Shown: piece by piece, positions 39,976 to 45,842 of the stretch
How positions within the stretch are numbered: position 1 is the first letter of the stretch
Layout: each line of letters begins with the position of its first letter
Source: Archangium primigenium
GTDB taxonomy: Bacteria > Myxococcota > Myxococcia > Myxococcales > Myxococcaceae
DNA: 64,000 nucleotides
Reading direction: 5' to 3'
Assembly: GCF_016904885.1 (NCBI RefSeq)
Contig: NZ_JADWYI010000001.1
Coordinates: 9,233,224 to 9,297,223 of the forward strand
Position numbers and translations under genes: made by a program
Notes under the pieces: generated by a model
The model's database searches: none
What the model was told of the DNA's origin: nothing
What the model saw: the letters and a program-made list of their open reading frames with translations, nothing else

Positions 39976-40545
39976 ATGGCACGTGACGACGACGATCGGG
40001 GCGGCGGGGGTTTTTCCGGCAAGCGGACCAAGACGTGGCGGGAGCTGGACGCCTCGCGCGGCAAGGGCCGGGGCCACACCTCGCGGCAGGATGACCCGGC
40101 CCAGCAGCGCATCGAGCGCAGCGCCTCCTACGAGAAGTACAAGGCGGCGGCGGACGCGCTCTTCACGGGCGGGGAGCTGCCCGAGGGCCTCGCCAAGACG
40201 TTCGATCCGGAAGGCAAGCGCAAGGCCCAGAAGCAGGCCATGCAGAAGCTGATGGAGTCGGCCGAGGACCCGCGCGCCTGGGCCCAGGGCGTGCTGGACT
40301 ACCTGGAGAAGTACCCCGAGCTGCCCGAGGACCCCTACTTCCTCGACAGCCTGCTGGGCCATCCGCGCGAGCGCATCTCCGACAAGGCGCTCGGCAAGCT
40401 GGAGGCCATGGAGGCCGAGGGCAAGCTGGTGAAGACCAAGCTGCCCAAGAGCCTGGACCAGCGGCTCAAGGGCATCGAGATGACCCACTCGGACTCCGAG
40501 ACCCAGGAGCGCGCCAAGGCGCTGCGCGCGAAGCTCCGGGCCTGA
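39976..40545 (+). CDS. Hypothetical charged protein
   Basis: A 189-residue, highly charged soluble protein. The N-terminus is Asp/Gly/Arg-rich (MARDDDDRGGGGFSGKR) and probably disordered. The remainder is predicted helical and contains alternating Lys and Glu. Its ribosome site (AAGGGGAAG) lies across the end of the preceding gene, which implies coupling. No family or function is recognised. GC content falls sharply after its stop, marking the left edge of the 40.6-42.6 kb islet. Confidence 0.68.
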   Translation: MARDDDDRGGGGFSGKRTKTWRELDASRGKGRGHTSRQDDPAQQRIERSASYEKYKAAADALFTGGELPEGLAKTFDPEGKRKAQKQAMQKLMESAEDPRAWAQGVLDYLEKYPELPEDPYFLDSLLGHPRERISDKALGKLEAMEAEGKLVKTKLPKSLDQRLKGIEMTHSDSETQERAKALRAKLRA

Positions 40546-40578
40546 ATTCAGTAAGGGGCGTGGTTCGCACTCTCTACC

Positions 40579-40601
40579 TCGACCCTCCTAGAATGGGTCG
40601 A
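40579..40601. promoter_or_regulatory. Inverted repeat over the putative -10 of the DAC-like gene
   Basis: TCGACCC and GGGTCGA are perfect 7-base arms separated by TCCTAGAAT, which holds a good -10 (TAGAAT, 40589-40594). The repeat ends 2 bp before ATG 40604. A start there would give a leaderless message, and a dimeric regulator bound to the arms would block polymerase. Confidence 0.5.
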
Positions 40602-40603
40602 CC

Positions 40604-41869
40604 ATGAGCGAGCCCGCCTTGAAGTACCCGCGTGAAGCATTGCGAGAATGGTTACAAGGGCGTGAGGGACGCCCTCCTTTAACGGAGGACGAACTCGGCC
40701 TCCTTGAAACCCTCGTTGACACCTTGTTCTTCGCCAGTTTGGCCAAAGAGGAAGGTCGGCCTGCGCTCGCGCGCATCGTCTATCACCATGATGGAACTCA
40801 AGGGCTGAAAGAAACGCGGGAGCACACGGACTACGATAGTTCGCAAGGTCCGGCACTCGCCTGGAATGTCACCCCATTCCGTCCCATCCTGCTCACGGCC
40901 AAGTCCCTGGCGAAGCTCACGCCTGCCGCCGATATGGAGCGAACAGCGCTCATCGTGGGCCCACGTGATGACGGGCGGCTCTACATCCTGGGATTGGCGA
41001 GACGAAACAAAGCCACTGATGGCGGAATGGTTACTGTGCTCTCCGCACCAGAACCCGGTTCCGTCGTTTTGTACCAAGCGGGGGAAGAGCTTTTCCGTTA
41101 CGAGCGAGGTCAACGGCTCTCTCCAGAACAGAAGTTTCCTTTATGGGGCCTCCTCCATAATGAAGGGATTGTCCGGCAGACGATTGAATCGATCTGCCAG
41201 AATCTCGTTCAGACCTTGGCAGAGGCTTCTTTCTTCCGATGGCCAAACTCTGGTGTTTGGCCTGTCGCTTCTCTGCTTTTCGACCTCATCAACACCATGG
41301 CTTCAAAACGCCACGGGGGGCTCATCACCCTCCTCCCAGCAGAGCACGAGGAGAATCCTTTCTACGCCATCTCCCACCATCACTCGCGATTCGGCGAACT
41401 CCTACTGCAGTCCACGCAGACACAAACGAATGCGTACCGTCTAGCCTTCGCACGACGTGCAGACGACCATTCGCAGTCCGAAGAAGAAAGGGGCTTTCAT
41501 GAAGAGGTTCGAACGACCAAGGAGTCATTGAACTCGCTCATCGAGAACGTTGGCCAATTGACGGCCCTGGACAATGCACTGCTCCTGGGTCCCGACCTCA
41601 AAGTCATCGGAGCGGGTTTCTCGGTGCCAACTCCCAAGTTGGCCACACCCACGGTACATCTCGCACAGGATCTCCAAGGAACGCCGGGCCCTGTCTACGA
41701 CATCAATCAGCATGGTTCCCGTCATCGAGCCGCCACGTGGTTCGCCTTCGAGAATCCCGGGGGAGTGGCTTTCCTGGTCTCGCATGACGGACCGCTTCGC
41801 TGTCTGATTCGACCCTCCGCGAAAGAGACGACCGTCCTTCTCTGGAACCTCCGGCTTCACGAAATCTGA
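40604..41869 (+). CDS. Diadenylate-cyclase-like (DisA_N/DACNV-type) protein
   Basis: A 421-residue protein. The C-terminal part resembles the diadenylate cyclase (DAC) domain. GSRHRAA at 371-377 matches the GTRHRAA/RHR motif of DisA, followed by AFLVSHDGPLRCLI where DisA has VVSEETG.I. The DGA motif is represented by LDNALLLG (Asp323, Asn324, Ala325), so a key Gly is changed and c-di-AMP synthesis is uncertain. The N-terminal 300 residues would be a sensor region, as in the DACNV-type proteins named in comparative-genomic work on nucleotide signalling. Codons are visibly less GC-rich than its neighbours, suggesting transfer. No clear ribosome site precedes ATG 40604. Confidence 0.68.
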   Translation: MSEPALKYPREALREWLQGREGRPPLTEDELGLLETLVDTLFFASLAKEEGRPALARIVYHHDGTQGLKETREHTDYDSSQGPALAWNVTPFRPILLTAKSLAKLTPAADMERTALIVGPRDDGRLYILGLARRNKATDGGMVTVLSAPEPGSVVLYQAGEELFRYERGQRLSPEQKFPLWGLLHNEGIVRQTIESICQNLVQTLAEASFFRWPNSGVWPVASLLFDLINTMASKRHGGLITLLPAEHEENPFYAISHHHSRFGELLLQSTQTQTNAYRLAFARRADDHSQSEEERGFHEEVRTTKESLNSLIENVGQLTALDNALLLGPDLKVIGAGFSVPTPKLATPTVHLAQDLQGTPGPVYDINQHGSRHRAATWFAFENPGGVAFLVSHDGPLRCLIRPSAKETTVLLWNLRLHEI

Positions 41870-42013
41870 ACCGAAGATGAGCCACAATGCCCTCTGATCT
41901 TGGCTCCGCAGCCTCACGAAGAGCGAGTTCTTGATCCTCCATCCATTAAGACCAGCTCACGTCCTGTTGGGCACGCCGAGGGAACCAGCAGAAACCCTTT
42001 TGAAGGGCGAGGC

Positions 42014-42643
42014 ATGTCCGTCACCAAGATCTTCTACAAGGATCAGGAACTCGCGAACGAGCGGTTGGAACTGACGGACAAGAACGCGATCTACTTCCTG
42101 GGTCCCAACCTGGTCCTGCGCGATTGCACCCTCCACTTGAAGGTGGCCGCGAGGAACCTGCTCATGCGCGAAGTGCGCTTCCACGGCTGCACCTTTGAGG
42201 TGACTCAGGAGCTGAAGAACCATCAGGACTGGCTCGGGGCCAGCCTCGAGGGGTGCCGATTCAAGGGACGCTTGCGCGGCTGCGACTTCGGACACTGGCC
42301 CGAGTACGGAAACGAGCCCGAGTACCAGTGCGGTGCCATCTCGGACTGCGACTTCACCGAGGCGCAGCTCCACGCCTGCCGCTTCATCGCGTGCGACCCC
42401 CACACCTTGAAGCTGCCTCGCTGGCCCTGCTTCTCCATCTTGGATCCGCTCCACCGGGCACCCGAGCTGTCCAGCGCGGCATGGCCTGACTTGTTTACCC
42501 GAGTCATCATCCAGCAGCTTCACACCCATCCGCCTCGCACCCGCGCCCTCACGCTCCACGCCCCCACGGTCGCCCGACAACTGGAGACCACGCCCGAGGC
42601 GCTCAGGCCCCTCATCGAGACGTTCGACCGCATGGTGTACTGA
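42014..42643 (+). CDS. Pentapeptide-like repeat protein
   Basis: A 209-residue protein. Residues 25-135 contain spaced (L/F)xxC(x)F-like units (LRDCTLHL, FHGCTFEV, LEGCRFKG, LRGCDFGH, ISDCDFTE, LHACRFIA), reminiscent of the pentapeptide-repeat right-handed beta-helix but irregular. The C-terminal 70 residues are helical. ATG 42014 with GAAGG/GAGG upstream is preferred over a longer frame from 41900. It follows the DAC-like gene by 144 bp of relatively AT-rich DNA. Regular pentapeptide proteins bind DNA mimics or act as scaffolds; no role can be given here. Confidence 0.62.
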   Translation: MSVTKIFYKDQELANERLELTDKNAIYFLGPNLVLRDCTLHLKVAARNLLMREVRFHGCTFEVTQELKNHQDWLGASLEGCRFKGRLRGCDFGHWPEYGNEPEYQCGAISDCDFTEAQLHACRFIACDPHTLKLPRWPCFSILDPLHRAPELSSAAWPDLFTRVIIQQLHTHPPRTRALTLHAPTVARQLETTPEALRPLIETFDRMVY

Positions 42644-42679
42644 GGCGCCCGCTCCGCCGCTGGGCGCGCCAGTGCGCCG

Positions 42680-45600
42680 TCAGCGGTTGATGACGAAGCC
42701 GCAGGCGGAGTCGAGCACCACCTTGGCGCCCCGGAGCGCGGTGAGCAGCCGTTCGTAGTGGGCGTACTCGGCATCGAGCTGCGCCTGCACGGCCTCGGCC
42801 CCGAGCCCCTGGTGCGTGAGCGACAGCTTCATGCGCGCGAGGGCCCCGTCCCGCTCGGCCTCCACGGCCTCCCGCGCGCGCGCCTGGAGCGTGCCCATCT
42901 CCGCCTCGGCGGCCTTCTGCGCCACCGGCACGCCCGCGTCCACGAAGGCCGCGAAGCCCGGGAAGGCGCGCGCCACCTCGTCGCCCTTGAGCGAGCGGCC
43001 ATCGGTCTCCAGCGCGGACAGCACCTTCGTGTCCATCACCGGCCCCGAGGGGCCCTCCACCACCGCCACGTGCACGAGCGTGCGCTCCAGGAAGCGCGCG
43101 AGCTGACGGCTCGGCACCCGCGCGCCCGGCGAGGTGTCCTCGGGCTCGGGCAGCTGCACGTGGTAGAGCAGCTCCACGCCCCGCGCCTTGAGCGGCCCGC
43201 GCCGCTCGATGAAGCGCGCCGCGCTGCGGCCATACGGCCCGTCGCGCAGGAAGCCGAACAGCGCCTCCACGATGGCGTGGCCCGTGGCGTAGTACTCCAG
43301 CTCCTCGGCCTCCACCGCCGTGTCGCGCCAGAAGGTGCCCAGCACCGTGCGGTCCTCGTTGATGTCGATGCCCGGCAGGCCCTCCACCTTGAGCGCGTGG
43401 CCGAACTGGAAGGCGCACTGGAAGGCGTCCACCTGCTCGTCCGTGTCCACGCCGATGCCCACCCGGCGCGCCAGCTCCGTCACCGCCTCCTCCAGGCGCT
43501 CGTCCAGGTCGCGCGCCACGCTCCACAAGCCCTCCTCGAGCGGCGGCGCGCCGTCCTCCTCCTCGTCCTCCACGCCCATGCGCTCCTGGGCCCGCTTCAC
43601 CAGCCGCGCCACGGCGTCCTTGTCGAACGAGCGGATGTCGAGCAGCGGGTCATACGCGCGCTTCACCTGCGCCCGCGCCGCCTCCACCTTCGTCTTGAGC
43701 TCCGAGGCGTACGCCACGCGCGACTCGCGCGGCAGCAGCGCCAGCTCGGTGAGCCGGTCCTCCACCTCCTCGAGCACCGCGTCCAGGCCGCCCACCGTCT
43801 CGCCGAACACGCCCACCGCGTCCGCCAGCAGCATCAACACGTCCGAGGCCAGCGTGCCCGCCGGGTCGAAGACGTGGATCTCCACCGGGTGGTTCTGCCC
43901 GATGCGGTCCAGGCGGCCGATGCGCTGCTCCACCGTGGCCGGGCTCCAGGGCAGGTCGTAGTGCACCAGGTGGTGGGCGAACTGGAAGTTGCGGCCCTCG
44001 CCGCCCACCTCCGTGCACAGGAGCACCTTGGGGCCCTCGGGGTCGCGGAAGCGCGCCACCTGCCGGTCGCGCTCCACCAGGGGCAGGTCGCCATGGTAGG
44101 CGAGCGCCTCGATGCCCTCGCGCCCCAGCTCCGCGCGCAGGGCCTCCAGGGTGTCGCGGCTCTCGGTGAAGACGAGCACCTTGGCCGCGCGCTCGGCGCT
44201 CCAGACGTCGCGCAGCACACTGAGGAAGGCGCTGAACTTCGCATCGCGCGCGGGCAGCGTGAGCGTGCCGGCCACGCCCGCGAGCGCCTTGTTGCCGCGC
44301 AGGGCCTCGCCGAACGCGGCGGGGCTCGACTCCAGGCGGCGCAAGAGGTTGCCCAGGGGCGCGCCGCGCAGGGAGGACGTGGCGAGCGCGGCGAGCGCGG
44401 CGTCGCGCGTTTGAATCTCCTCGGCGGACAGCGTCACCGGGTGGCGGTGCAGGCGGCGCGTGGAGAAGCCGCCCACCACGGCGCGCCGGTTGCGCACCAG
44501 CCGGTCCGACAGGCTGTACGTCTCCGCCAGGTGCTGCAGGAGCGCGTCGCGATCCTTCAGCGTGCCGAGCACGGCGTCATCCGGGAAGCGCGCGGCCAGG
44601 GCCTTCACCGCGCCGCCCGCGTCCTCGCCCTCGAGCAGCCCGCGCACCGCGCGGCTCAGCTCCTCCTGCCGCGCGAGCCGCCGCTCGAAGCCCTCCACCG
44701 TGGGCGCGGTGGCCGCGTCGATGAGGGTGAGCAGGCCGTGGTACTCGGCCGGGTCGAGCTGCATGGGCGTGGCGGTGAGCAGCAAGAGGCCCCAGCTGTT
44801 GGCCGCCAGGCCCTCGGCGGCGGCGAAGGCCTTCTCGCCCTTGAGGTGGTGCGCCTCGTCGATGATGACCAGGTCCCAGAAGGCGTCCTCGTCCGCCACG
44901 GCGCGGCGGTGCTCCTCGGTGCGCGCGAGCATCTCCAGGCTCGTCACCACCAGGGGGAAGCGCGCCCAGGGGGACACCTCGGGCTGCTCCTTGAGCGAGC
45001 TCGCGTAGCGGTCCGAGTCCATCAGCGTGAAGAGCTGGTTGAACTTGTGGAACAGCTCCACGAGCCACTGCACGGTGAGGTGGCTCGGGGCCACCACCAG
45101 CACGCGTCGCGCGAGCCCCGACAGGCGCAGGGCGCTGAACACCATGCCCGCTTCGATCGTCTTGCCCAGGCCCACCTCGTCGGCGAGCACGAAGCGGGGC
45201 CGGCGCGCGCTGAGCACGCGCTGCACCACGCCCACCTGGTGGGGCTTGACCATCACCCGGCTGGCCAGGAGCGCGCCCAGCGCGTCACAGCGCCGCTCGT
45301 CGTCGAGCACCAGGGCCTGCTTGCGCAGGGTGAAGGCGCGCGCCTCGCCCACGCGGCCCTCGCGCAGCGTGGACAGCACGTCCGAGCGGGGCGCGAGCGC
45401 GTGCACCTCGGACTCGGGCAGCTCGTCCTCCTCGTCCGTGTCCGTGTAGCGGATGACGTAGCGGCGCAGGCCCCGGCCGCCCTCCTCCTCGCCCAGCACG
45501 GAGGCGCGTCGGCCCCGGGTGGTGCGCACCGGCTCGCCCCGCGTGAACGCGTACGGGGCCAGGGTGCCGCCCTTCGTGGACACCAGCACCGGGTCACCCT

Positions 45601-45718
45601 CCCGGGCGGGGAAGAGGACGAGCGCCTTGGCGCCCTCGTCCTGCAACTCGAGCAGATGCCCCACGCCCCACTCGGGCTGGGGGAGATAGCGGACCTTGTT
45701 GCCGGGGACGAAAGACAT
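42680..45718 (-). CDS. rapA: RapA/HepA-type SNF2 ATPase, RNA polymerase recycling factor
   Basis: A 1012-residue Swi2/Snf2 ATPase. The N-terminus MSFVPGNKVRYLPQPEWGVG matches RapA-type Tudor-like domains. Helicase motifs are complete: Walker A DEVGLGKTIEAG, motif II IIDEAHHLKG, motif III LTATPMQ, and motif VI EQRIGRLDRIGQ. In E. coli, RapA binds RNA polymerase and frees it from stalled post-termination complexes. Length matches E. coli RapA (968 residues). ATG 45718 starts at the conserved domain; the ribosome site is weak. Its 3' end marks the right boundary of the islet at 40.6-42.6 kb. Confidence 0.9.
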   Translation of the reverse strand: MSFVPGNKVRYLPQPEWGVGHLLELQDEGAKALVLFPAREGDPVLVSTKGGTLAPYAFTRGEPVRTTRGRRASVLGEEEGGRGLRRYVIRYTDTDEEDELPESEVHALAPRSDVLSTLREGRVGEARAFTLRKQALVLDDERRCDALGALLASRVMVKPHQVGVVQRVLSARRPRFVLADEVGLGKTIEAGMVFSALRLSGLARRVLVVAPSHLTVQWLVELFHKFNQLFTLMDSDRYASSLKEQPEVSPWARFPLVVTSLEMLARTEEHRRAVADEDAFWDLVIIDEAHHLKGEKAFAAAEGLAANSWGLLLLTATPMQLDPAEYHGLLTLIDAATAPTVEGFERRLARQEELSRAVRGLLEGEDAGGAVKALAARFPDDAVLGTLKDRDALLQHLAETYSLSDRLVRNRRAVVGGFSTRRLHRHPVTLSAEEIQTRDAALAALATSSLRGAPLGNLLRRLESSPAAFGEALRGNKALAGVAGTLTLPARDAKFSAFLSVLRDVWSAERAAKVLVFTESRDTLEALRAELGREGIEALAYHGDLPLVERDRQVARFRDPEGPKVLLCTEVGGEGRNFQFAHHLVHYDLPWSPATVEQRIGRLDRIGQNHPVEIHVFDPAGTLASDVLMLLADAVGVFGETVGGLDAVLEEVEDRLTELALLPRESRVAYASELKTKVEAARAQVKRAYDPLLDIRSFDKDAVARLVKRAQERMGVEDEEEDGAPPLEEGLWSVARDLDERLEEAVTELARRVGIGVDTDEQVDAFQCAFQFGHALKVEGLPGIDINEDRTVLGTFWRDTAVEAEELEYYATGHAIVEALFGFLRDGPYGRSAARFIERRGPLKARGVELLYHVQLPEPEDTSPGARVPSRQLARFLERTLVHVAVVEGPSGPVMDTKVLSALETDGRSLKGDEVARAFPGFAAFVDAGVPVAQKAAEAEMGTLQARAREAVEAERDGALARMKLSLTHQGLGAEAVQAQLDAEYAHYERLLTALRGAKVVLDSACGFVINR

Positions 45719-45842
45719 TGTGGGAAACCAATCCTCACGAGCGAGAGAGGGGGCGTGGCTCATAACCGCGGATCGCGCGCGGGGCCACTCCTTGGAGGCC
45801 CGGCCCCGCCCTCGGGGGATGGGCGGGGAAGCCTGGAAAGAC

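Follow-up and report, generated by a model that had tools for sequence, protein, structure and literature searches.

The locus studied here raises the question of whether two co-directional genes of Archangium primigenium, situated in an analysed stretch of 64,000 nucleotides (the window), form one transferred nucleotide-signalling system or are neighbours by accident. The original prediction held that both belong to a transferred islet, that both use less GC-rich codons than the rest of the window and that they act as partners, the first gene encoding a diadenylate cyclase (DAC)-like protein and the second an unannotated one.

The islet, of about 2.1 kb, sits between two convergent core genes. 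The left flank is a conserved core gene of 189 aa (39976..40545, + strand; 72-94% identity in relatives by tblastn) whose product matched no Pfam family at E up to 1; it is co-oriented with the islet, and its 3' end forms the left border of the site. The right flank is a conserved core gene for a RapA/SNF2-type helicase (42680..45727, - strand; 45727 is the start used for searches, in a frame open to 46054), assigned by Pfam and by synteny in relatives, and its 3' end (42680) forms the right border. Both flanks were found to be syntenic in relatives, and the islet does lie between ordinary myxobacterial genes, as had been proposed. In two of three same-genus genomes (G001 and G003) the site was empty, with the stop codons of the two flanks 39 bp apart, and the third (G002) contained a different insert of 2.27 kb. 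The second open reading frame of that insert starts like a ParA-type ATPase, by reading of its sequence.

A wider scan of relatives gave a similar picture. Both flanks were present at 19 of the 23 relative loci scanned, the left gene being missing at the other four (one more contig, G045, stops at the border and was excluded). The gap between the stop codons measured -4 to 87 bp in 4 of these 19 relatives and 1.4-13.5 kb, with varied cargo, in the remaining 15. Since the gap is empty in some relatives and variably filled in others, the site between the convergent genes is an insertion spot. Its cargo included a SitA5 gene in G039 and, in G057, a DAC fragment beside a SitA5-AHH/Imm11 cassette. 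In deeper relatives, some recurrent inserts (Tad-like by reading) have a GC3 that looks native and may be ancestral instead of mobile. Orthologues of the islet are not found at the same place in all relatives, and the proposal of a transferred islet survived this comparison: the islet is acquired DNA in an insertion spot. No long repeats were found to bracket it, unlike the second DAC islet of the same genome. An Rfam scan of 35-50 kb at gathering scores returned no RNA element, and a search of the islet for promoter and terminator consensus sequences, which is uninformative in a GC-rich host, found none.

Codon usage set the two genes apart. The 36 other genes of the window, defined with a crude codon-bias caller, had a mean GC3 of 0.932 (sd 0.040, minimum 0.800). 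The DAC gene (40604-41869), with a GC content of 0.573 and a GC3 of 0.625, did not match its neighbours and is a clear compositional outlier, low in GC and acquired. When counted from ATG 42014, where it probably starts, the second gene, which encodes a pentapeptide-like protein, had a GC3 of 0.876. This value is lower than the mean of the window by about 1.4 sd and falls inside the range of its paralogues in the same genome (n = 16; GC3 0.711-0.923, mean 0.852). The predicted departure in codon use is therefore real for the first gene (0.625 vs 0.932) and does not hold for the second.

The product of the first gene is a protein of 421 aa (40604..41869, + strand), characterised by Pfam searches, alignment, an AF2 model and GC3. 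Its N-terminal part matched DACNV (PF21751) at 49.9 bits, above the gathering cut-off of 27, over residues 33-132, which probably correspond to a sensor domain. The DAC family itself (PF02457) was matched at 12.3 bits, below its gathering cut-off of 27. The AF2 model (pLDDT 89.4) displayed a DAC fold over residues 200-420 or thereabouts, and when it was compared with solved structures by VIA-align the first 40 rows were all diadenylate cyclases (Z 10.1-12.4), unrelated rows reaching 7.7 at most. The top row was 2fb5 (Z 12.4, rmsd 2.6 over 140 residues), an entry titled merely 'hypothetical membrane spanning protein' and named a DAC in the part of a review used here (PMC7288161). A profile of 25 homologues also found solved DACs by sequence, placing the D-x-A motif on the DGA of DisA and the GxRHRxA motif on GTRHRAA. 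These results agree with the identification of a DAC-like nucleotide-signalling protein, and the window protein is a new member of the known DACNV-DAC family, with DACNV above cut-off and a C-terminal DAC fold on a single polypeptide. A literature search for DACNV and its sister domains by name gave none among the matches listed, and a search on DACs in anti-phage or conflict systems and on myxobacterial c-di-AMP gave nothing on the DACNV-DAC family among the matches listed.

Alignments indicated that the residues expected at the active site are conserved. D323-N324-A325 (codons 41570..41578, + strand) is the counterpart of DGA in the profile aligned to DisA, and the GxRHRxA motif is present as G371-S-R-H-R-A-A377 (codons 41714..41734, + strand; alignment and profile), so that both the retained GSRHRAA and the DNA in place of DGA were read correctly at the outset. 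D323, A325, G371, R373, H374, S393 and D395 were identical in 25/25 aligned homologues, whose identity goes down to 22%. The last residue of RHR varied across this alignment of the family. A literal DGA is absent from the window protein. DGA is found in 17 of the 25 rows and DNA in the other eight, namely the window, the three relatives closest to it, two from the locus of genus g26, L036 and L096; shared by eight rows, the variant is not an isolated decay. The side chains of the ATP pocket of L. monocytogenes CdaA include Asp71, Arg103, His104, Ser122 and Glu124, and the glycine of DGA is not on the pocket list in the part of the review used here (PMC7288161). By our reading of the alignments, D323, R373, H374 and S393 match Asp71, Arg103, His104 and Ser122, and Glu124 is replaced by Asp. 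Since these active-site residues are kept, the protein is likely to be a synthase and would most likely make c-di-AMP or a close relative. CdaA, DisA and CdaS share with it the fold and the positions of D-x-A, GxRHRxA and the S-x-acidic motif. It differs from them in the N-terminal DACNV domain, in N for G in DGA, in D for E and in two long helices that the model places between the strands bearing GGLI and D-x-A; among DACNV-DAC proteins, it and its close relatives are distinguished by the DNA variant.

The second gene (42014..42643, + strand; 209 aa) was assigned from a predicted fold weakly like that of pentapeptide-repeat proteins and from the position of its paralogues. The listed open reading frame starts at TTG 41900, and homology within the family begins near ATG 42014, the likely start. 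Pfam pentapeptide models gave at best 18.3 bits, below the cut-off of 27. A fold search showed a weak resemblance to pentapeptide-repeat proteins (QnrB1: E 2.6e-3, prob 0.94, TM 0.25), and a profile of the family reached QnrB1 at E 3e-5. The similarity to Qnr, AlbG and MfpA in profile and fold is weak and partial; the model of the window protein has an extra C-terminal part.

The genomic position of the paralogues was more informative. This genome contains 19 copies of the family, which is represented in 18 of 116 genomes when this one is counted. Fourteen of the 19 copies follow directly, and on the same strand, a gene that encodes a SitA5 escort region; two of the 14 share one toxin gene, and one of the SitA5 genes is split between frames. 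The SitA5 type was identified with NF050093 (SitA5_escort) in 8/10 neighbour proteins scanned. SitA5 is missing from the other five, which are the window copy, a member of the L077 array, and those at L078, L081 and L084, the last with toxin-domain pieces upstream. A second set of 18 copies included the window copy once more and otherwise came from 15 loci, 14 of them in other genomes. All but the window copy (17/18) had the same toxin C-terminal domain, complete or in part, no more than 150 bp away. In the parts of two papers used here (PMC8546572, PMC5562445), SitA lipoproteins are described as toxins that pass between cells by outer-membrane exchange, the cognate SitI being encoded in the same operon. 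The word 'pentapeptide' does not occur in what was available of their main text. Because the family lies directly behind SitA5 genes, as in the SitA5-SitI loci of myxobacteria, it is most simply regarded as a SitI-type immunity family, and a neutralising role is suggested by the position of the paralogues. The window copy differs from those loci in having no SitA5 gene: no SitA5 or toxin-domain signal was detected beside it, and we therefore call it an orphan, predicted to be immunity-like. SitA5 remnants were sought by tblastn in 40540-42020 and 42600-42700 with 14 toxin-domain entries from own-genome copies (two of them identical in sequence), and no match fell below E 0.027. What had been described as an unannotated partner thus acquires a concrete putative role: it would confer immunity to a family of SitA5 toxins with a C-terminal domain that matches no Pfam family and no credible PDB entry.

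The paired toxin C-terminal domain was conserved over 12 rows. It spans about 150 aa (L077:8100-8549 and counterparts), is rich in invariant residues and ends in HGRRM--FFRM; pieces of it also occur between tandem immunity copies, for example at L058, L063 and L064. The domain of L077 matched no Pfam family at E up to 1, a 12-row profile searched against the PDB gave no credible match (best E 0.37), and the domain had no plasmid or phage match. The pentapeptide family extends beyond myxobacteria to a plasmid of Variovorax paradoxus, where an unannotated sequence of 30% identity (L138:5001-5483), a distant homologue, forms part of a longer open frame.

Neighbourhood scans did not bear out the proposed partnership. 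The DAC homology block extends over 40554..41915 (+ strand), with 76% identity to L027 over 40554-41915 and 73% to L093 and L028 over slightly shorter stretches. The pentapeptide block, defined by outermost blastn extents, covers 41996..42658 (+ strand) and is shared with paralogues, most of them behind SitA5 genes. The two blocks are separate, with about 80 bp of unrelated DNA between them. Among 45 DAC loci scanned, a pentapeptide homologue was present at the window locus only (0/44 others, several of which are cut by contig ends). The neighbourhoods of DAC genes differ between loci; according to neighbour gene lists from a crude codon-bias gene caller, which are approximate, and blastp comparisons, shared neighbours come mostly from one genus locus, with few others common to two or three loci. 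No conserved effector gene was found beside the DAC gene across the DAC loci, in contrast to CBASS-like two-gene cyclase-effector systems. A phage or viral origin of the DAC gene was rejected, as there was no match in phages and no relative was found in viral contigs.

We therefore consider it likely that the islet consists of two independent mobile cargo pieces placed side by side in an insertion spot, a DACNV-DAC protein and an orphan SitI-type gene. In the first, the N-terminal DACNV domain would sense a cue and control the C-terminal domain of diadenylate-cyclase fold. As no conserved effector gene lies beside the DAC gene, the signal would need receptors encoded elsewhere in the host. The second may protect the cell from SitA5 toxins that bear one particular, undescribed C-terminal domain and that would be carried by other cells or by paralogous loci. 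We infer that the two pieces arrived independently. Against fully independent arrival, DAC genes lie near SitA5 genes more often than the density of SitA5 predicts, and shared insertion spots could account for this.

A two-gene signalling or defence system, in which the DAC nucleotide is made on infection and the pentapeptide-like protein is the effector, appears very improbable. It is a tempting reading of two co-directional genes 144 bp apart in one islet, all the more as pentapeptide-like beta-helices occur in a nucleotide-activated defence effector and the window protein shows weak matches to HalA (NF051894 at E 0.0032 but with 16.7 of 250 bits; 9nyi at rank 24 in the fold search). However, the pentapeptide gene is absent from the 44 other DAC loci, its family belongs with SitA5 toxins, an unrelated linker of 80 bp separates the homology blocks, the two GC3 values differ strongly (0.625 vs 0.876) and PADLOC models matched neither protein at E up to 1. 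An operon-like system of the two genes was accordingly rejected, and the tempting interpretation is corrected by the scans. It is also unlikely that the DAC domain is degenerate and acts as a nucleotide-binding sensor without synthase activity. Such a sensor would fit the DNA that replaces DGA, the Asp in place of the second Glu of SEE, the sub-threshold Pfam score and the variation at the third residue of RHR; against it stand the D, R, H, S and acidic residues at the ATP pocket, invariant in all 25 homologues down to 22% identity, and the retention of DGA itself in 17 of them.

The association with SitA5 required closer consideration. The DAC gene could be an accessory of SitA5 cassettes that tunes kin discrimination or the toxin response, the window having lost the toxin and kept the DAC and immunity genes; we regard this as unlikely. 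Support comes from genus g26 (taken as Corallococcus), in which all 16 genomes of the family sample contain a DAC gene and 9 have it directly upstream of a SitA5 gene on the same strand. In those nine, the DAC match and the escort match are separated by 119-138 bp (at L033 the genes themselves by 7 bp), NF050093 scores over cut-off in 9/9, an AHH nuclease domain is present in 8/8 whole SitA5 genes (that of L034 is incomplete, cut by the contig end), and an Imm11-like gene then follows in 8/9. These cases look like one locus inherited by descent, however, and in the other seven genomes SitA5 or Imm11 signals are some 4 kb away (5/16) or absent from the 2.8-3.2 kb scanned downstream (2/16). The DAC fragment of G057 beside SitA5-AHH/Imm11 at the same insertion spot, and a SitA5 gene of G010 about 2.6 kb from a DAC gene on the opposite strand, also speak for an association. 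Overall, 3 of the 17 distinct DAC loci had SitA5 within 3 kb, where the density of SitA5 would predict 0.32 (P 0.0035), in a post hoc test that counts only SitA5, treats loci as independent and counts the g26 locus once. The G057 fragment is one of the three, and with it dropped the two remaining matches give P ~0.04. At the other 14 loci, of which L041 and L045 are truncated by contig ends, SitA5 was not detected within 3 kb, and nine further DAC loci (four from Sorangium or Minicystis; four of the nine among those already scanned) likewise lacked any signal of SitA5, Imm11 or the pentapeptide family. Here, as in the scans of the insertion spot, of the other DAC loci and of the pentapeptide copies, these three families were sought with small profiles (10, 2 and 19 sequences, respectively) that may miss diverged copies. 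The DAC protein is also not SitB as described: SitB has a signal sequence and a predicted beta-barrel in the part of PMC5562445 used here, and the DAC gene as SitB was set aside for this reason. Shared insertion spots are sufficient to explain the closeness, and most DAC loci are without the link; it therefore stays a lead. There is a small chance that a sensor-bearing cyclic-dinucleotide synthase travels with outer-membrane-exchange cassettes and couples a second messenger to kin discrimination, with a DAC-SitA5-SitI operon in Corallococcus and a relic without its toxin in the window. The DAC protein might then sense an incoming SitA5 toxin or its damage, and the closeness, if confirmed, would tie cyclic-nucleotide signalling to kin discrimination. 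In a single-contig g26 genome (G136), the DAC gene is followed immediately by SitA5/Imm11 signals arranged in tandem (L109:465-8783).

Homologues of the DAC protein at E <= 1e-15 were detected in 33/195 genomes of the phylum sample and in 32/96 of the family sample, the own genome included in both. In a collection scan with a narrower alignment, the named DAC loci were all from myxobacteria (8/8), and one distant homologue, annotated DACNV-containing, was found on a Hymenobacter plasmid. A gene for a patatin-like phospholipase lies upstream of that homologue. At several loci a low-GC DAC gene lies among high-GC neighbours; at three Sorangium loci the DAC gene has a native GC3 of 0.94-0.95, and no SitA5, Imm11 or pentapeptide signal was found near it. 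DACNV-DAC genes thus recur in myxobacteria at different places with active-site residues intact, which makes their c-di-AMP synthesis, and the cue for it, worth asking about.

Several other DAC loci had features of their own. Besides a stronger DAC match (E 8.4e-19), the genome of the window also contains a second DAC gene of low GC (L128:372-2025, approximately G000:C1:8320500-8322160), which encodes 435 aa and matches PF02457 at E 1.9e-7. This second gene has on either side a copy of a 114-bp direct repeat (85%), a duplication of the end of the upstream gene (symporter-like by reading), in a manner like that of an attachment-site duplication. In two genomes, different DAC members (L036:9172-10581 and L131:8001-9381) adjoin a tRNA-Leu(gag) gene that has a secG-like gene (by reading) upstream, a place that is apparently the family's second insertion spot. 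Beside the two closest DAC homologues (L027:11683-13518 and L028:7130-8812), a candidate lipoprotein gene is followed by an ankyrin-repeat gene. The lipoprotein candidate has a sub-threshold Ntox16 match in L027, the ankyrin-repeat gene was scanned in L028, and the two are possibly another toxin/immunity pair. Related transposase-like open reading frames (by reading) are found in two genomes, just downstream of the DAC genes at L048:10426-11082 and L028:10909-11742.
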